This document shows, piece after piece, positions 1-5,790 of a DNA stretch of 5,864 bases. The DNA lies in assembly GCA_027858355.1 (NCBI GenBank), contig JAQICW010000490.1, positions 1 to 5,864 on the forward strand. Direction: 5' to 3'. A program made the position numbers and the translations under genes. The DNA comes from Desulfobacula sp. (GTDB lineage Bacteria; Desulfobacterota; Desulfobacteria; Desulfobacterales; Desulfobacteraceae). Within the stretch, counting starts at the first letter, position 1. Every line of letters begins with the position of its first letter. The notes beneath the pieces were generated by a model. It was not told the origin of the DNA. It did not search any database and saw only the letters and a list, made by a program, of their open reading frames with translations.

Positions 1-1319
1 ATCTTATTGAGTATAGCATCATCATAAATCCCGTTTTTAATCAGGTCCCTTGCTGCCCTGTCCACGCTCATATTTATAGGACCAAGATTGTGGGTAGTGC
101 CCACGATGAGATTCACCCGGGTAATGAGACCATTTTCATCTGTAGAATAATCATGAATAAGGGTTCCCCTTGGTGCTTCAACGCATCCGACACCCCTTCC
201 TGCGCAGGGTTCAACCTTGGCTCGGATCTCAGGGCTGATGATCCTGGGATTTTTCAGGATTTCAATTGCCCTTTCACAGGTGTAAACCTCCTCAATCCGT
301 CTTGCATAATGATAAAGAAGGGTGGATTGTGCAGGGCGACCATACAGATCGCGGAACTCTTCAAGTTCAGCCTGGGCTCTTGGCGTGGCAATCCGGTCGG
401 CCACATTGATTCTTGCAAGTGTGTTGGATCTGTAGATGCCTTTTGGAGCATCAAGATCCATTGAAAATCCTTCCCCCCAGGATTTTGCATAGGGAAATTT
501 CCCATATGAGAACGGAACCACCTTTTCTGCCAGATGGTCCAGATACTCATCCGGGCAAAACTCCTTATAGCTTCCATCGGGTTTCATTAACCGGATATTG
601 CCGTCATACAGATTTAAAGCACCTTTATTGTCAACCATCCCGATGAAACCCGTGGTAATTTCTCCAAGGCCGGGGTAAGATTCTTCAAATTTTGGGAAAA
701 CCTCTTTTTTGGCATATTCCAGGGCAAAAAGGGCAAAATCTAAAAGTTCCGTCAAATTATCAAGAAATATTTTGCGGTCCTCTATTGAAAGGGGTTTTAC
801 AAAACCGCCCGGCACACCGGCAATAGGGTGAATGGTTTTTTTGGAAAATCTGTCCAGAATCATTTTAGCCCTATGCCGCATCTTGATCACTTTCTGTGCA
901 AGTTCTGGGTTTGCTTTTACAAGCCCCATAATGTTACGAACACTGTAATCATACTCAGGTCCCAGAAAAAAATCAGCCCCGGCAAGGAAGAAAAAATGAA
1001 GCAGCTTGTCCTCAATATGGGCAACCGTCAACATCAGTTCCCTTAAAAGATTTCCGGCAGGTGGGGGAGTGACCTTAAAACATGCATCCACTGCCTTGTT
1101 GGACGCAATATGATGCATCCAGGGGCAAATCCCACAAATTCGACTTACTATCCTCGGAAGTTCTTCTGCCGGCTTGCCTTCAACAAATTTTTCAAACCCT
1201 CTCAGGGATTTAAACGCTACTTTTGTCTCCTGAACATTACCCTGATCATCTAACTGGATATGGATCGAAGCATGTCCTTCTATGCGGGTGATGGGTTGAA
1301 TATTTATTACTTTTCCCAT
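1..1319 (-). CDS. mvhA: Mvh-type (group 3c-like) [NiFe] hydrogenase large subunit, partial (C-terminus beyond window)
   Basis: This is the catalytic subunit of a cytoplasmic [NiFe] hydrogenase, which binds the Ni-Fe(CN)2CO centre and splits or forms H2. 439 complete codons are visible from the ATG at 1319. The N-terminus carries the conserved TRIEGH motif (residues 11-16) and the first nickel-binding motif RICGICP with Cys62 and Cys65, followed by MHH. No signal peptide is seen. Family members are usually about 470 residues, so roughly the last 30-50 residues are missing, including the second CxxC nickel motif and the C-terminal peptide removed by the maturation protease. The ATG lies 1 nt after the stop of the small-subunit gene (TAA-T-ATG), with AAAGGA 11 nt upstream, which indicates translational coupling. 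Assignment to group 3c rather than F420-reducing group 3a is inferred from the adjacent MvhD and MvhG genes and from overall resemblance. Whether the distal CxxC contains selenocysteine cannot be judged here. Confidence 0.93.
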   Translation of the reverse strand, partial: MGKVINIQPITRIEGHASIHIQLDDQGNVQETKVAFKSLRGFEKFVEGKPAEELPRIVSRICGICPWMHHIASNKAVDACFKVTPPPAGNLLRELMLTVAHIEDKLLHFFFLAGADFFLGPEYDYSVRNIMGLVKANPELAQKVIKMRHRAKMILDRFSKKTIHPIAGVPGGFVKPLSIEDRKIFLDNLTELLDFALFALEYAKKEVFPKFEESYPGLGEITTGFIGMVDNKGALNLYDGNIRLMKPDGSYKEFCPDEYLDHLAEKVVPFSYGKFPYAKSWGEGFSMDLDAPKGIYRSNTLARINVADRIATPRAQAELEEFRDLYGRPAQSTLLYHYARRIEEVYTCERAIEILKNPRIISPEIRAKVEPCAGRGVGCVEAPRGTLIHDYSTDENGLITRVNLIVGTTHNLGPINMSVDRAARDLIKNGIYDDAILNK

Positions 1320-1320
1320 A

Positions 1321-2262
1321 TTATTCTGATTCCTTTATCCTGGGTAAAGGGTGCAACAATCCATGTCCCCCGGAAAACCTGAGCATTGACACTGTTTCAG
1401 GCAAAGAAGATATATCAATGCCGTTGGATACAAGGGCATTCAGCATGGCCAACCGCTGGTTGCCTTCCTTTTTTACCGGGCCGTAACATCCCCGGCAGGG
1501 CACCTGGGCCATAATACAACGTGCCTGCTCTGTATCTCCGCCGCATCCATCCCTGGTCACCGGCCCCATGCAGAGAAATCCCTGTTCCAGGAAACATTTA
1601 AATCCTTCTTTTGTATCATCAAAAACCCTCCATTGTGGCAGTTCCAAAGCCCTTTTCAACTCTTTCACCTTACCTTTGCCATCCCTATCCACAGGACAAT
1701 TGCCGCACACTGATTTCTCCGGCAGCAAAAACGACTCTTTTTTCTCAATCGATTGAAGCGCCCTGAAAATATGATCTGGATGAGGCGGACAGCCTGGAAG
1801 ACAGACATCCACACGGATGTGTTCATCAAGGGCAGAGCAGGCAGGCATCAACTCTGGGACTATATCGGACGGAAAACTATCAGCTTTATCCGTCCCAACG
1901 GTATTAAAACAATGCCCAAGCATATCATCATTATGAAAAGAATTTGCAAGGGCTGGAATTCCCCCATGGGTGGCGCAGGTTCCAAAAGCAATAATAAGAT
2001 CACAGGAATCTCTCATGGCTCGGGCAAGCTCAAGATGTTCTTTGGTTTTAATACTCCCGCTGATAAGGCCCACATCAGCTTTGGGCAGTTTGACAGTCTG
2101 CGAATTATTTTTTCCATCGCAATGTTTGCTGTCCATAAGGAGGGGAAGATGAACGATGGAGACAAATTCCAGCAGCGTTAAAAGCTTGTCTCCCATTTCA
2201 AGAATGGAAATCTCACATCCTGAACAAGCATTTAAACTCTCTCCTGCTAGTTTTATGGGCAT
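1321..2262 (-). CDS. mvhG: Mvh-type [NiFe] hydrogenase small (gamma) subunit
   Basis: This 313-residue Fe-S subunit carries electrons away from the NiFe site. Proximal [4Fe-4S] ligands are visible as CSGCE (Cys13, Cys16), GTCATHGG (Cys96) and PGCPPHPD (Cys158). The C-terminal part holds CGNCP (Cys186, Cys189), a Cys at 231, GCGG (Cys240), Cys249 and PCRGCYGP (Cys256, Cys259), the cysteine pattern of MvhG/VhuG proteins with two further clusters. The length matches that family, which lacks a Tat signal, and none is seen, so the protein is cytoplasmic. The ATG at 2262 is preceded by GAGGA about 6 nt upstream. It follows the frhB-like gene after 71 nt and ends 1 nt before the large-subunit gene, as expected for subunits of one complex. 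FrhG or sulfhydrogenase delta subunits are the nearest alternatives. Confidence 0.93.
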   Translation of the reverse strand: MPIKLAGESLNACSGCEISILEMGDKLLTLLEFVSIVHLPLLMDSKHCDGKNNSQTVKLPKADVGLISGSIKTKEHLELARAMRDSCDLIIAFGTCATHGGIPALANSFHNDDMLGHCFNTVGTDKADSFPSDIVPELMPACSALDEHIRVDVCLPGCPPHPDHIFRALQSIEKKESFLLPEKSVCGNCPVDRDGKGKVKELKRALELPQWRVFDDTKEGFKCFLEQGFLCMGPVTRDGCGGDTEQARCIMAQVPCRGCYGPVKKEGNQRLAMLNALVSNGIDISSLPETVSMLRFSGGHGLLHPLPRIKESE

Positions 2263-2333: not shown

Positions 2334-3452
2334 TTACACAGTGACCTGCACTGACTTAGCTTGAAGGCTTCTTCTCTTGTACCGGGCGTTCTTCTTCTTT
2401 GCCGAAGAGGCCTTCCTGACTTCCTGAAGTGCTCTGCTGGCAAACTCAGGATTGTCCTCCACATTAAATTGTTCAATACTTTTAAAATTTCGGCTGTCTG
2501 CCAGAACAGCCCTGCCAAGGGGGGTCCGGATAATGATGGTAGTCCACCCTGCCTCAGCACCGATCCCGCCAAAGGAAATATCGGCAAACTCTGCTGAATA
2601 ATCAGAACAATAGTTACAGGCATACCTTTTCATGGATTCCATTTGCTCAAGTTCCACTGTTTTGATATCCCCTGATTTCAGTGTGATAATGAGCTTGTCC
2701 TTTAGGTTTATCCGGCTGACATCGTCCAATGATATTCCTGCAATATCTGCCAACTTCTGCTGTTCCTTGATCCCAAAGGTAAAATTGCCGGAACAGAAAA
2801 GACCAAATCAAAATTTTATGGAATCCGATGGGATTAGATTTAAAACCTGCATCTTGCGAAGGGATTTAATCTGGCAGGGTGTGCCGACCAGCGCTACCCT
2901 TTTCAGTCCCTTTTTAATCATGGGGTCAAATTCCTCAATGGTTGAAAATGTCATATACTGATCGCTGAACCGTTTCAATCCATGTGAAGTATCAAAAAAA
3001 AGCCCTGTAGATTCCAATATTTCTTCCCGGGGGGTTGCTAAAAAAGGCTGACGTTGATATTTACCCACCGGTCTTGTGACAATGGCACCATCAATTCTGT
3101 TTCGGTCAAACAGATGAAGAAGAAGCCCTGTAACCGCACCTCCGTCCGAGGCCCGATCCATTACTTTGACATCAGATGCCCTGACAACAGTGGTCTCGAT
3201 CACCCTTCCCATGGGCTCACTCCAGGCTGCCTGTCGCTTTGTTTCCTCATCCAGATCTTTAATTTCCGGGCAAATGGAGTAACAAAGGCCGCACTCAATA
3301 CATTTTTCAATGTCTTGATAAACAGGCTTCCCGTTTCTGTCGATTTCCAGTGCACCATAGTTAATGGCTGTACAAAATGCAGCACACCCGCCGCACCGGT
3401 AACATAATCCTGGTTTTTGTACTTCCTGTACAAGATTAAAAAATGTTTTCAT
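2334..3452 (-). CDS. Ferredoxin-FrhB fusion flavoprotein (F420 hydrogenase/dehydrogenase beta-subunit family), interrupted by one in-frame UGA, candidate selenoprotein
   Basis: Read through the TGA at 2810-2808 the product is 372 residues. Residues 17-61 form a two-[4Fe-4S] ferredoxin domain (CX2CX2CX3C at Cys17-27 and Cys51-61). Then come an FrhB N-terminal domain with the SDGGAVTGLL motif (102-111) and GTPCQ (Cys193), and an FrhB C-terminal domain with GLFC (Cys220), CNYC (Cys279, Cys282) and ADISFGG. FrhB proteins bind a flavin and one [4Fe-4S] cluster and pass electrons to or from F420, ferredoxin or a partner subunit; the acceptor here is unknown. The TGA is codon 215, in KF-TGA-FGLFC. 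Both sides are in the same frame and both conform to the family, so this is not a frameshift. A SECIS-like hairpin follows. As I recall the family, the position is usually hydrophobic, so a nonsense mutation is the rival reading; termination there would remove Cys220, Cys279 and Cys282. The start ATG has AAAGGAG 4 nt upstream and lies 11 nt after mvhD. Confidence 0.85.
2754..2801 (-). promoter_or_regulatory. SECIS-like hairpin immediately downstream of the in-frame UGA
   Basis: The mRNA arms are CUUUUCUGUUCC (2801-2790) and GGAACAGCAGAAG (2766-2754). They form 12 pairs with one bulged C (2759) and one G-U pair. The upper 7 pairs (CUGUUCC with GGAACAG) are uninterrupted and start 11 nt after the UGA, the spacing known for the E. 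coli fdhF SECIS. The loop (2789-2767) begins with GG, in line with the G required near the start of bacterial SECIS loops. At 23 nt the loop is longer than typical; inner pairs such as GG with CC could shorten it. A competing fold pairs UUUGGUC (2807-2801) with GAUCAAG (2771-2765). Seen by eye only, with no energy calculation. Confidence 0.5.
2808..2810 (-). other. In-frame UGA codon, candidate selenocysteine recoding site
   Basis: TGA occupies codon 215 of the frhB-like frame. Upstream residues run IPSDSIKF and downstream residues FGLFCSGNF, matching the continuous FrhB strand-cluster segment (compare KLLVGIYC in methanogen FrhB, from memory) with no insertion or deletion. The downstream frame stays open for 157 more codons with conserved cysteines. 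Recoding as selenocysteine is suggested by the hairpin immediately 3' and by a neighbouring [NiFeSe] hydrogenase operon, which implies that the cell makes selenoproteins. Absence of a known Cys counterpart at this position weakens the case. Confidence 0.5.
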
Positions 3453-3463
3453 GGTCTCCTTTC

Positions 3464-3877
3464 TCAGGGATTAACCTTATGCGGGCCAAGTTTCTTTATT
3501 TTCATTGTAAAATCGGTAATCAGCTGAGCAAAAACAGATCCCTCAGCCGAGGAAATCCACTTAAGTTCAAACCGGCATGGGTCTACACCAATATCCTGAA
3601 GAATGATGGATATAACTTCTGCCCGGACCACAGCTTTTGTATTTCCTTCAATATAATGACATTCACCAGGATGACAACCCATGATCATAACACCATCCGC
3701 TCCCTGGGAAAATGCTTCCATCACCAGATCTGGATGAACCATACCTGTGCACATCACCCGTATGGGACGAAGATTTGGAGGATACTGAAGTCTTGCAACC
3801 CCTGCCAGGTCCGCACCAGTATAAGAACACCAATTGCATAAAAAACCTATAATAATCGGTTCAAAACGGGAAGACAT
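3464..3877 (-). CDS. mvhD: MvhD-type hydrogenase delta subunit ([2Fe-2S] electron-transfer protein)
   Basis: This 137-residue protein has the usual length and motifs of MvhD/VhuD: GFLCNWCSYTGADLAG (Cys14, Cys17), RVMCTGMV (Cys43) and GCHPGECHY (Cys68, Cys73). In methanogens MvhD carries a [2Fe-2S] cluster and links the MvhAG hydrogenase, or formate dehydrogenase, to HdrA for flavin-based electron bifurcation. Its presence therefore predicts an HdrA-like partner, which is not in this window. Some methanococcal VhuD proteins contain selenocysteine; this one has Cys at all visible positions. The ATG overlaps the stop of the protease gene by one base (TGATG), with GGGAG about 9 nt upstream, so translation is probably coupled. 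The TGA that ends the gene is followed directly by the ribosome binding site of the frhB-like gene, so it reads as a normal stop. Confidence 0.94.
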   Translation of the reverse strand: MSSRFEPIIIGFLCNWCSYTGADLAGVARLQYPPNLRPIRVMCTGMVHPDLVMEAFSQGADGVMIMGCHPGECHYIEGNTKAVVRAEVISIILQDIGVDPCRFELKWISSAEGSVFAQLITDFTMKIKKLGPHKVNP

Positions 3878-4398
3878 CAGACAGACTCCCTGTTACAGGA
3901 TATAAATTCTGGATCATATACTTTTAGCTTGATTAAATTGCAAAATTTTCGGACTGCTTCTTTGACCGGTTTGCTCAGGCCTGGTTTAACCATCTGTGGG
4001 ATATTGTCAGTCTGTACTGCATAAATCTCAATATCGATCACAGATGCATCCCTTAATTCCTTAAGCATATTAATAGTCGGGAACTGATGGAGAGAGTAAT
4101 CAGCCACCTTATTTTCCGGAATCTGATCTATATCAATGCGAATGATTTCTCCTGGCAAGACGTTAGAATGCTGAACTGCATCAATCAAAATAAGTCTCTT
4201 GGGAATAGGGCTGGAAAGCAGTAAATCAAAAAGAAGCTCCCGGACCGAAGTGCCTGCATCTAAAAGTCCGATATGGTCAGCCAGGATATTTTGTGCCTCA
4301 AGCGATTCGATCACAGCCGGACCAAACCCGTCATCACCCAATAGCGAGTTGCCGCAGCCCACCACCAAAATATCCTTATTAAACAAATCCAGGTACAT
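3877..4398 (-). CDS. [NiFe] hydrogenase maturation endopeptidase (peptidase M52, HycI/FrhD-like)
   Basis: This 173-residue protease cleaves the C-terminal extension of a NiFe large subunit after nickel insertion. The family signature GCGNSLLGDDGFGP lies at residues 14-27. By comparison with E. coli HybD, the nickel-sensing ligands correspond to Asp23 (GDDG), Asp73 (LIDAV) and His104 (SLHQ). It is the first gene of the minus-strand operon, so its likely substrate is the MvhA-type subunit encoded four genes later; acting on HysA is possible but less likely. The ATG at 4398 is chosen because an in-frame TAA sits two codons upstream and the family core begins by residue 10. It has no recognisable Shine-Dalgarno sequence. 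A good one (AAAGGAG, 4455-4449) lies about 50 nt upstream, which is unusual. Confidence 0.92.
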   Translation of the reverse strand: MYLDLFNKDILVVGCGNSLLGDDGFGPAVIESLEAQNILADHIGLLDAGTSVRELLFDLLLSSPIPKRLILIDAVQHSNVLPGEIIRIDIDQIPENKVADYSLHQFPTINMLKELRDASVIDIEIYAVQTDNIPQMVKPGLSKPVKEAVRKFCNLIKLKVYDPEFISCNRESV

Positions 4399-4737: not shown

Positions 4738-4752
4738 AAGGAGGTGCCCGTG
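4738..4752 (+). promoter_or_regulatory. hysB ribosome binding site that fixes the GTG start
   Basis: AAGGAGG (4738-4744) is followed by 5 nt and then GTG (4750-4752). An earlier in-frame GTG at 4744 overlaps the Shine-Dalgarno sequence itself, and the ATG at 4765 is too far away, so 4750 is the best start. Confidence 0.8.
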
Positions 4753-5712
4753 AAAGACAAAGAAATGTTGCTTGATGGCCAACAACAGAAAACAGGGGTT
4801 TCCCGAAGGACTTTTTTGAAAACCGTTACAGGGACAGCTGCTGGAATTGGTATTTCTCAAATATTCAATCCCGCCCTTGTTTTAGCATTGGAAAAGGCCC
4901 TTGAAACCCATCCGGTTCTCTGGATACAGGGGCAAGGCTGCACAGGCTGTTCAGTTTCCCTTTTAAACTGTGTTGATCCATCCATTGCAGATGTACTTCT
5001 CAAAGTTATAAGCCTTCAGTTTATTCCCACAGTAATGGCAAGCGAAGGGGAAACTGCTCTGAACAATCTTTACCACATTGCAGAAAAGTACAAAGGAAAA
5101 TTCTCTTTAGTAGTTGAAGGTGCCATTCCAATGGCCGCAAATGGGAAATACTGTGTTATCGGTGAACTCAACCACAAAGAGATCACCATGGTTGACATGG
5201 TCAAAGATCTTGGTGCAAAAGCAGGAAGCGTTCTGGCAGTAGGAACCTGTGCCTCTTTTGGTGGAATTCCGGCTGCTTCCGGCAGTGAAACCGGTGCAAC
5301 AGGGGTAATGAATTTCTTTCAAACTTATGGCATGAAAACTCCCGGTGTCAATATTCCCGGTTGTCCTTCACATCCGGACTGGATTGTGGGATCCATTGTT
5401 CATCTTTTAACCAAAGGTCTTCCTGAATTGGATAACGATGGCCGCCCCACCATTTTCTTTGGTGATAACATCCATGACAACTGCCCACACCTGGATGAAT
5501 ATGATTCAGGAATCATGTCTGAAAAACTCTCTGATGCAAAAGGCTGCCGTATGGATATTGGGTGTAAAGGTCCGGACACATATGCTGACTGTTATAAACG
5601 AAAATGGAACAGCGGCATGAACTGGTGTGTGGATAATGCAGTCTGCATTGGTTGTGTTGAACCTGGGTTCCCAGATGCATCATCGCCATTCTATGAACCC
5701 GCATACCACTAG
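4750..5712 (+). CDS. hysB: Periplasmic [NiFeSe] hydrogenase small subunit, Tat-exported
   Basis: This 320-residue Fe-S subunit moves electrons from the active site of a periplasmic uptake hydrogenase, probably to c-type cytochromes. A twin-arginine signal (SRRTFLK, residues 18-24) precedes a hydrophobic stretch. Proximal-cluster ligands are GCTGC (Cys64, Cys67), GTC (Cys167) and PGC (Cys205). Distal ligands are His242, Cys245, Cys266 and Cys272. Medial ligands are Cys281, Cys293, Cys299 and Cys302. Cys293, in NWC, stands where standard [NiFe] enzymes have Pro, which turns the [3Fe-4S] cluster into [4Fe-4S] and is the mark of [NiFeSe] enzymes. Length and sequence closely resemble Desulfovibrio HysB as remembered. 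The hysA gene starts 68 nt downstream, the usual B-A order. The GTG start is set by AAGGAGG 5 nt upstream. Confidence 0.95.
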   Translation: MKDKEMLLDGQQQKTGVSRRTFLKTVTGTAAGIGISQIFNPALVLALEKALETHPVLWIQGQGCTGCSVSLLNCVDPSIADVLLKVISLQFIPTVMASEGETALNNLYHIAEKYKGKFSLVVEGAIPMAANGKYCVIGELNHKEITMVDMVKDLGAKAGSVLAVGTCASFGGIPAASGSETGATGVMNFFQTYGMKTPGVNIPGCPSHPDWIVGSIVHLLTKGLPELDNDGRPTIFFGDNIHDNCPHLDEYDSGIMSEKLSDAKGCRMDIGCKGPDTYADCYKRKWNSGMNWCVDNAVCIGCVEPGFPDASSPFYEPAYH

Positions 5713-5772: not shown

Positions 5773-5790
5773 TTCCGGTCATGGCTGGAA
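5773..5790 (+). promoter_or_regulatory. Hairpin presenting the hysA start codon in its loop
   Basis: TTCCGG (5773-5778) pairs with CTGGAA (5785-5790), giving 6 pairs including one G-U. The 6-nt loop TCATGG contains the ATG. No Shine-Dalgarno sequence is visible upstream of this ATG. It may tie hysA translation to ribosomes finishing hysB, but a 6-bp hairpin can arise by chance. Confidence 0.35.

Follow-up and report, generated by a model that had tools for sequence, protein, structure and literature searches.

Probable nonsense mutation or base-calling error in a clade-conserved cysteine codon of a ferredoxin-FrhB flavoprotein gene in Desulfobacula sp.

A ferredoxin-FrhB (Fd-FrhB) flavoprotein gene of Desulfobacula sp. 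carries a single in-frame TGA at codon 215, a position occupied by cysteine in nearly all of its nearest homologues. We judge it probable, at roughly 0.65, that this TGA arose as an isolated change in a Cys codon conserved across the clade, whether by nonsense mutation in the strain or through a miscalled base in the sequence. This figure, like the weight given in words to each of the two competing readings discussed below, is a judgement and was not computed.

The hydrogenase locus and its interrupted frame

Profile searches of its genes identified the window (the whole stretch of DNA analysed, comprising the 5,864 nucleotides of contig JAQICW010000490.1) as a hydrogenase locus of a sulfate-reducing bacterium, with the following genes:

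3877..4398, minus strand: hydrogenase maturation protease of the HycI/FrhD type, first gene in reading order (profile matches)
3464..3877, minus strand: MvhD/VhuD-like subunit (FlpD, PF02662) in its Cys form, without internal stop (profile match)
2334..3452, minus strand: ferredoxin-FrhB flavoprotein frame of 372 codons with one internal TGA (profile matches; homologues of 372 aa)
1321..2262, minus strand: VhuG/MvhG-like hydrogenase small subunit (profile matches)
3..1319, minus strand: VhuA/MvhA-like hydrogenase large subunit, its gene cut by the window end (NF041785, 414.7 bits, below the cut-off of 800)
4744..5712, plus strand: NiFeSe hydrogenase small subunit, divergent from the Vhu/Mvh-type operon (NF045520, 520.9 bits, cut-off 470)

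The five other window genes checked contain no internal stop, compared with one in the FrhB frame, indicating that the window sequence is not generally poor. The presence of a NiFeSe hydrogenase small-subunit gene suggests, but does not prove, that the host uses selenocysteine (Sec). This small subunit is of the periplasmic type, and a large-subunit gene, as judged by eye, begins at 5781 on the plus strand and is cut by the window end; its Sec codon would fall outside the window. The C-terminal Ni-ligand motif (Cys or Sec) of the VhuA-like large subunit also lies beyond the window end. PMC13188914 counts MvhD/VhuD among the selenoprotein families, yet the MvhD/VhuD-like gene of the window contains no TGA and its product has Cys at every such position.

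When the TGA is read through, the minus-strand frame extends from 3452 to 2334, running for 372 codons from ATG to TAA with this one internal stop, and it can be divided as follows:

2811..3452, minus strand: residues 1-214, with the 2[4Fe-4S] ferredoxin domain and the first part of the FrhB domain, including Cys193 (domain matches)
2808..2810, minus strand: in-frame TGA, codon 215, at the position of the clade-conserved Cys
2334..2807, minus strand: residues 216-372 and the stop TAA, with the remaining FrhB domain and Cys220, Cys279 and Cys282 (domain matches, alignment)

The frame read through presents a ferredoxin domain (PF13237) at residues 12-62, followed by PF04422 at residues 89-160 (53.3 bits, cut-off 22) and PF04432 at residues 184-328 (123.4 bits, cut-off 23.3), the latter two placing the protein in the FrhB/FdhB flavoprotein family. 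Since the PF04432 match runs across the TGA, both sides of it belong to one protein, and the UGA lies in frame inside one conserved coding frame, as is looked for in a selenoprotein. The original prediction, which described a single TGA in an otherwise continuous ferredoxin-FrhB frame with Cys193 before it and Cys220, Cys279 and Cys282 after it, was borne out in these respects: the four cysteines are correctly placed and invariant in a 52-sequence alignment (C220 is Ser in one of the 120 nearest homologues). A frameshift was ruled out by the ORF and domain matches, which keep to one frame throughout, and a general reassignment of TGA was ruled out because two window genes, mvhD and hycI, end with it as their ordinary stop codon.

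The best solved matches, extending over nearly the whole length of the protein, are FrhB-like F420-reductase subunits, each with a ferredoxin domain at the N-terminus, of two complexes described in PMC11493965: a formylmethanofuran dehydrogenase (8RJA; chain 8rja_E, query 4-357, E 8.7e-49) and an F420-reducing CODH (8RIU; chain 8riu_B, query 7-348, E 3.1e-40). In the available text of that source, the CODH zeta subunit has an N-terminal ferredoxin domain with two [4Fe-4S] clusters and an F420-reductase domain with one [4Fe-4S] cluster and FAD. Both subunits differ from the window protein in being archaeal and in having Ala at the position aligned with residue 215. The window protein scores 147.1 bits against the F420-reducing FrhB equivalog TIGR03289, short of the cut-off of 331.5. 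The most likely role of Fd-FrhB within its operon is to carry electrons between a flavin substrate and the VhuA/VhuG/MvhD subunits.

Without read-through, the frame breaks into an ORF of 214 aa and a second one of 139 aa that begins with TTG. A real but tolerated stop would leave Fd-FrhB in two pieces, an N-terminal one and a C-terminal one started downstream, or would be passed by low-level read-through with a near-cognate tRNA. The TTG-started ORF and the well-preserved protein sequence downstream of the TGA are consistent with this reading, but we consider it very unlikely: the split would separate Cys193 from Cys220, Cys279 and Cys282, all of them conserved; no split form appears among the fragment matches listed; and the use of TGA to end mvhD and hycI makes general recoding improbable.

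Residue 215 and the cluster cysteines in relatives

A homologue search returned 1906 proteins, and residues were counted in the best 120. Cys occupies position 215 in 116 of these 120 nearest homologues, with Ser, Gly, Leu and Tyr found once each, and the nearest of all (P0001, 97% identical over 372 aa) has Cys. The wider BLASTP comparison covered 238 proteins, combining near homologues with the proteins of the fragment search; a residue could be assigned at 215 in 209 of them, 163 having Cys and 46 another residue, chiefly Thr, His or Tyr, and single residues are less certain where the proteins are frame-broken fragments. The distribution in distant Bacillota is quite different. The 25 loci entered gave 21 rows, from which one (L038) was dropped as a match to another motif, and the remaining 20 present Thr (11), Val (5), Ala (2), Ile (1) and Tyr (1), with no Cys. 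Sixteen solved chains were matched, and the four with listed alignments have Ala, Ala, Ile and Thr at this position.

Nearly fixed close to the window protein and absent from its distant relatives, Cys215 can be regarded as a character of the clade. The original prediction was concerned that the homologous residue is not Cys, and this holds for distant FrhB proteins, as none of the 20 Bacillota loci has Cys, but not for the near clade. Close relatives with ordinary sense codons and no Cys, which it had named as evidence against itself, were not what the nearest homologues revealed. TGA215 forms a genuine Cys/TGA pair, the feature usually looked for first in a selenoprotein, with Cys at the UGA position in the 116 near homologues and in none of the 20 distant loci.

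Each of the remaining 12 cysteines in the window protein is conserved in at least 119 of the 120 nearest homologues. Eight of them belong to the ferredoxin domain and the other four coincide with the invariant FrhB cysteines, and on this pattern and the family all 12 appear to be Fe-S cluster ligands. Of the 13 Cys positions, codon 215 alone is left without an apparent ligand role, and a selenol would be chemically plausible there. Residue 215 is predicted from sequence to sit in a strand adjoining the cluster and flavin. In the comparison of P0001-P0120 with loci L018-L036, Cys215 emerges as a Cys peculiar to the near clade that is not an apparent ligand itself and precedes a cluster ligand by five residues.

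Elsewhere in the frame, 38 single-base changes would yield a TGA, and 12 of these fall at Cys codons. A TGA at some Cys codon is therefore not a rare outcome; chance alone, on the other hand, would rarely pick codon 215, given the 38 other possible changes and its standing as the only non-ligand conserved Cys. The protein differs from P0001 at 7 positions before the TGA and 4 after it, and the differences are thus not denser after the stop.

SECIS prediction and searches for a second TGA form

We coded a bacterial SECIS model from the legend of Fig. 2 in PMC13188914, as our own implementation rather than bSECISearch, with an apical loop of 3-9 nt having G in its first two positions, a stem of at least 4 bp, a distance of 16-37 nt between UGA and loop, and a minimum free energy of at most -7.5 kcal/mol; the 16-bp upper limit on the stem was left out. 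All three E. coli controls pass this model (fdhF, -14.2; fdnG, -13.6; fdoG, -13.6). No consensus bacterial SECIS was found after UGA215, the best model-conforming hairpin reaching -5.8 kcal/mol, and allowing loops of up to 14 nt improved the best value to -6.6, which still fails. The hairpin predicted at the site is:

2754..2801, minus strand: predicted hairpin 3' of the UGA, with apical loop CCUU, failing the bacterial SECIS model

When each codon of the window genes was treated as a UGA, 437 of 1736 passed, as did 22 of 58 Cys codons. Because the model is this lenient, passing it would mean little, and UGA215 fails even so. The free fold after the UGA is no more stable than that of shuffled sequences: the 67-nt stretch folds at -13.8 kcal/mol (z -0.48), and 62 of 200 shuffles fold as well or better. 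No known RNA family was identified at the site, the sole match in the window being Xist_exon1 at 459-538, far below its gathering score.

A second TGA-bearing homologue was sought in several collections. The TGA form of the motif was scanned against one genome per species from 84,980 species (contigs of at least 3 kb), and the five stretches that matched are not FrhB genes: their best tblastn E value is 0.17, and PF04432 was detected in none of the five genomes. Of the 120 nearest homologues, 113 are matched by the Cys form of this motif. In the fragment search, none of the best 120 of 126 proteins ends at residue 214; this search is weak for close copies, since clustering at 90% merges them in the database, and the 214-aa piece of the window itself is likewise missing among the matches listed. 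Among the matches listed for 398 Bacillota genomes, all distant relatives, 30 span site 215 and none has an internal stop. None of three stretches from viral contigs encodes an Fd-FrhB relative, the plasmid protein records (86 and 126) all lie below 60% identity, and the nine matches in 21 genomes from the phylum of genome G002 all fall in the ferredoxin part. A UGA form in at least one further homologue was therefore not observed in the genome scan or among the fragments listed.

Readings of the TGA and known selenoproteins

The original prediction read TGA215 as a candidate selenocysteine codon. The Cys/TGA pair, the intact frame and the NiFeSe hydrogenase gene beside the operon speak for this claim; the SECIS model, the missing second TGA homologue and the Cys of a 97%-identical relative speak against it. 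Put in its strongest form, UGA215 would encode Sec in a recently evolved Sec form of Fd-FrhB with a SECIS outside the consensus model. SelB would then deliver Sec-tRNA at a non-consensus SECIS just downstream, and the selenol, five residues before ligand Cys220, might tune the [4Fe-4S]/flavin site or shield it while electrons arrive from the hydrogenase. We consider this reading less likely, though a real possibility. It draws on the conservation of Cys215 as the only non-ligand Cys of Fd-FrhB, the full frame after the TGA with no extra decay relative to P0001, and the nature of the product, a redox flavoprotein encoded in a hydrogenase operon. The available part of the review PMC13188914 also mentions that some real SECIS elements violate the model. 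Against it, a consensus SECIS was not found and the fold is no better than shuffles, P0001 has Cys, no second TGA form emerged from the genome scan or among the fragments and Bacillota matches listed, and position 215 accepts several residues.

The literature bears on the Sec reading in both directions. By its own count, Table 1 of PMC13188914 holds 119 prokaryotic selenoprotein families or subfamilies, and these include FrhA, MvhA/VhuA/VhuU, FrhD/VhuD and HdrA, related subunits that favour the Sec reading; FrhB, in contrast, is absent from the table as given in parts 1 and 2 (of 3) of its section. The selenoprotein subunits FrhA/VhuA/VhuU, FrhD/VhuD and HdrA occur in gene clusters of the same kind as that of the window, in Deltaproteobacteria and methanogens (PMC1794560 and PMC13188914, as far as the available portions go). 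The known hydrogenase and Hdr selenoproteins differ, however, in having Sec in subunits other than FrhB, and the window MvhD has no TGA. The word FrhB is absent from PMC9312934 and PMC11227280, and no title on a Sec FrhB appears among the literature matches listed for FrhB with selenocysteine or selenoprotein. In Desulfobacterota that use Sec, the number of selenoproteins can be as high as 30-40 according to the accessible sections of PMC8318568 and PMC12013277, which favours a Sec codon in this lineage. The former describes a Desulfobacula-like genome with 34 putative selenoproteins, one of which is a "coenzyme F420-reducing hydrogenase" given in the available text without a subunit name; a Sec FrhB may be among the 34.

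The closest parallel for the evidence itself comes from the Sargasso Sea study (PMC1088965, in part), in which 28 open candidates resemble TGA215 in setting one TGA sequence against conserved Cys homologues, and whose authors note that sequencing errors cannot be excluded for such single-sequence candidates. The new families accepted there have stable SECIS-like stem-loops, whereas TGA215 fails the consensus model.

Several lines of evidence lead us to favour a nonsense mutation or a miscall. Replacing Cys by Sec requires a functional SECIS from the outset, for otherwise the gene is simply broken, and the consensus is missed here (-5.8 against -7.5 kcal/mol) while the E. coli controls pass. 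Since P0001, at 97% identity, carries Cys, the TGA is either recent or false, and no second TGA form was found in the genome scan or among the fragments and Bacillota matches listed. Furthermore, position 215 tolerates Ser, Gly, Leu and Tyr in near homologues and Thr, Val, Ala and Ile in distant ones, and only one base is odd, as both a fresh nonsense mutation and a single wrong base would look. What argues against a nonsense mutation or miscall is that the TGA falls at the single conserved Cys without an apparent Fe-S ligand role, which chance would rarely pick, that the other five genes are intact and differences from P0001 do not accumulate after the TGA, and that the lineage can be rich in selenoproteins.

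If the TGA is truly in the DNA, UGA most likely terminates translation, and the product would be a piece of 214 residues that retains the ferredoxin domain but only a portion of the FrhB domain. This piece would lack Cys220, Cys279 and Cys282, three of the four apparent FrhB [4Fe-4S] ligands, and because of this loss it is not expected to assemble the FrhB cluster; the Vhu/Mvh-type hydrogenase subunits could then no longer exchange electrons with the FrhB flavin.

Were Sec to prove true, this would be the first FrhB selenoprotein family, extending the set of Sec-containing hydrogenase components by an electron-transfer subunit of the flavin/Fe-S kind and capturing in progress a Cys-to-Sec conversion between lineages about 97% identical in Fd-FrhB. 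Were it to prove false, the case would illustrate that one sequence with a Cys/TGA pair, however well placed the Cys, is insufficient to name a selenoprotein.

Only one other residue of the Fd-FrhB protein is strongly unusual. Residue 242 (2727-2729, minus strand) is Leu in both the window protein and P0001, whereas the majority residue, found in 115 of the 120 nearest homologues, is Trp.
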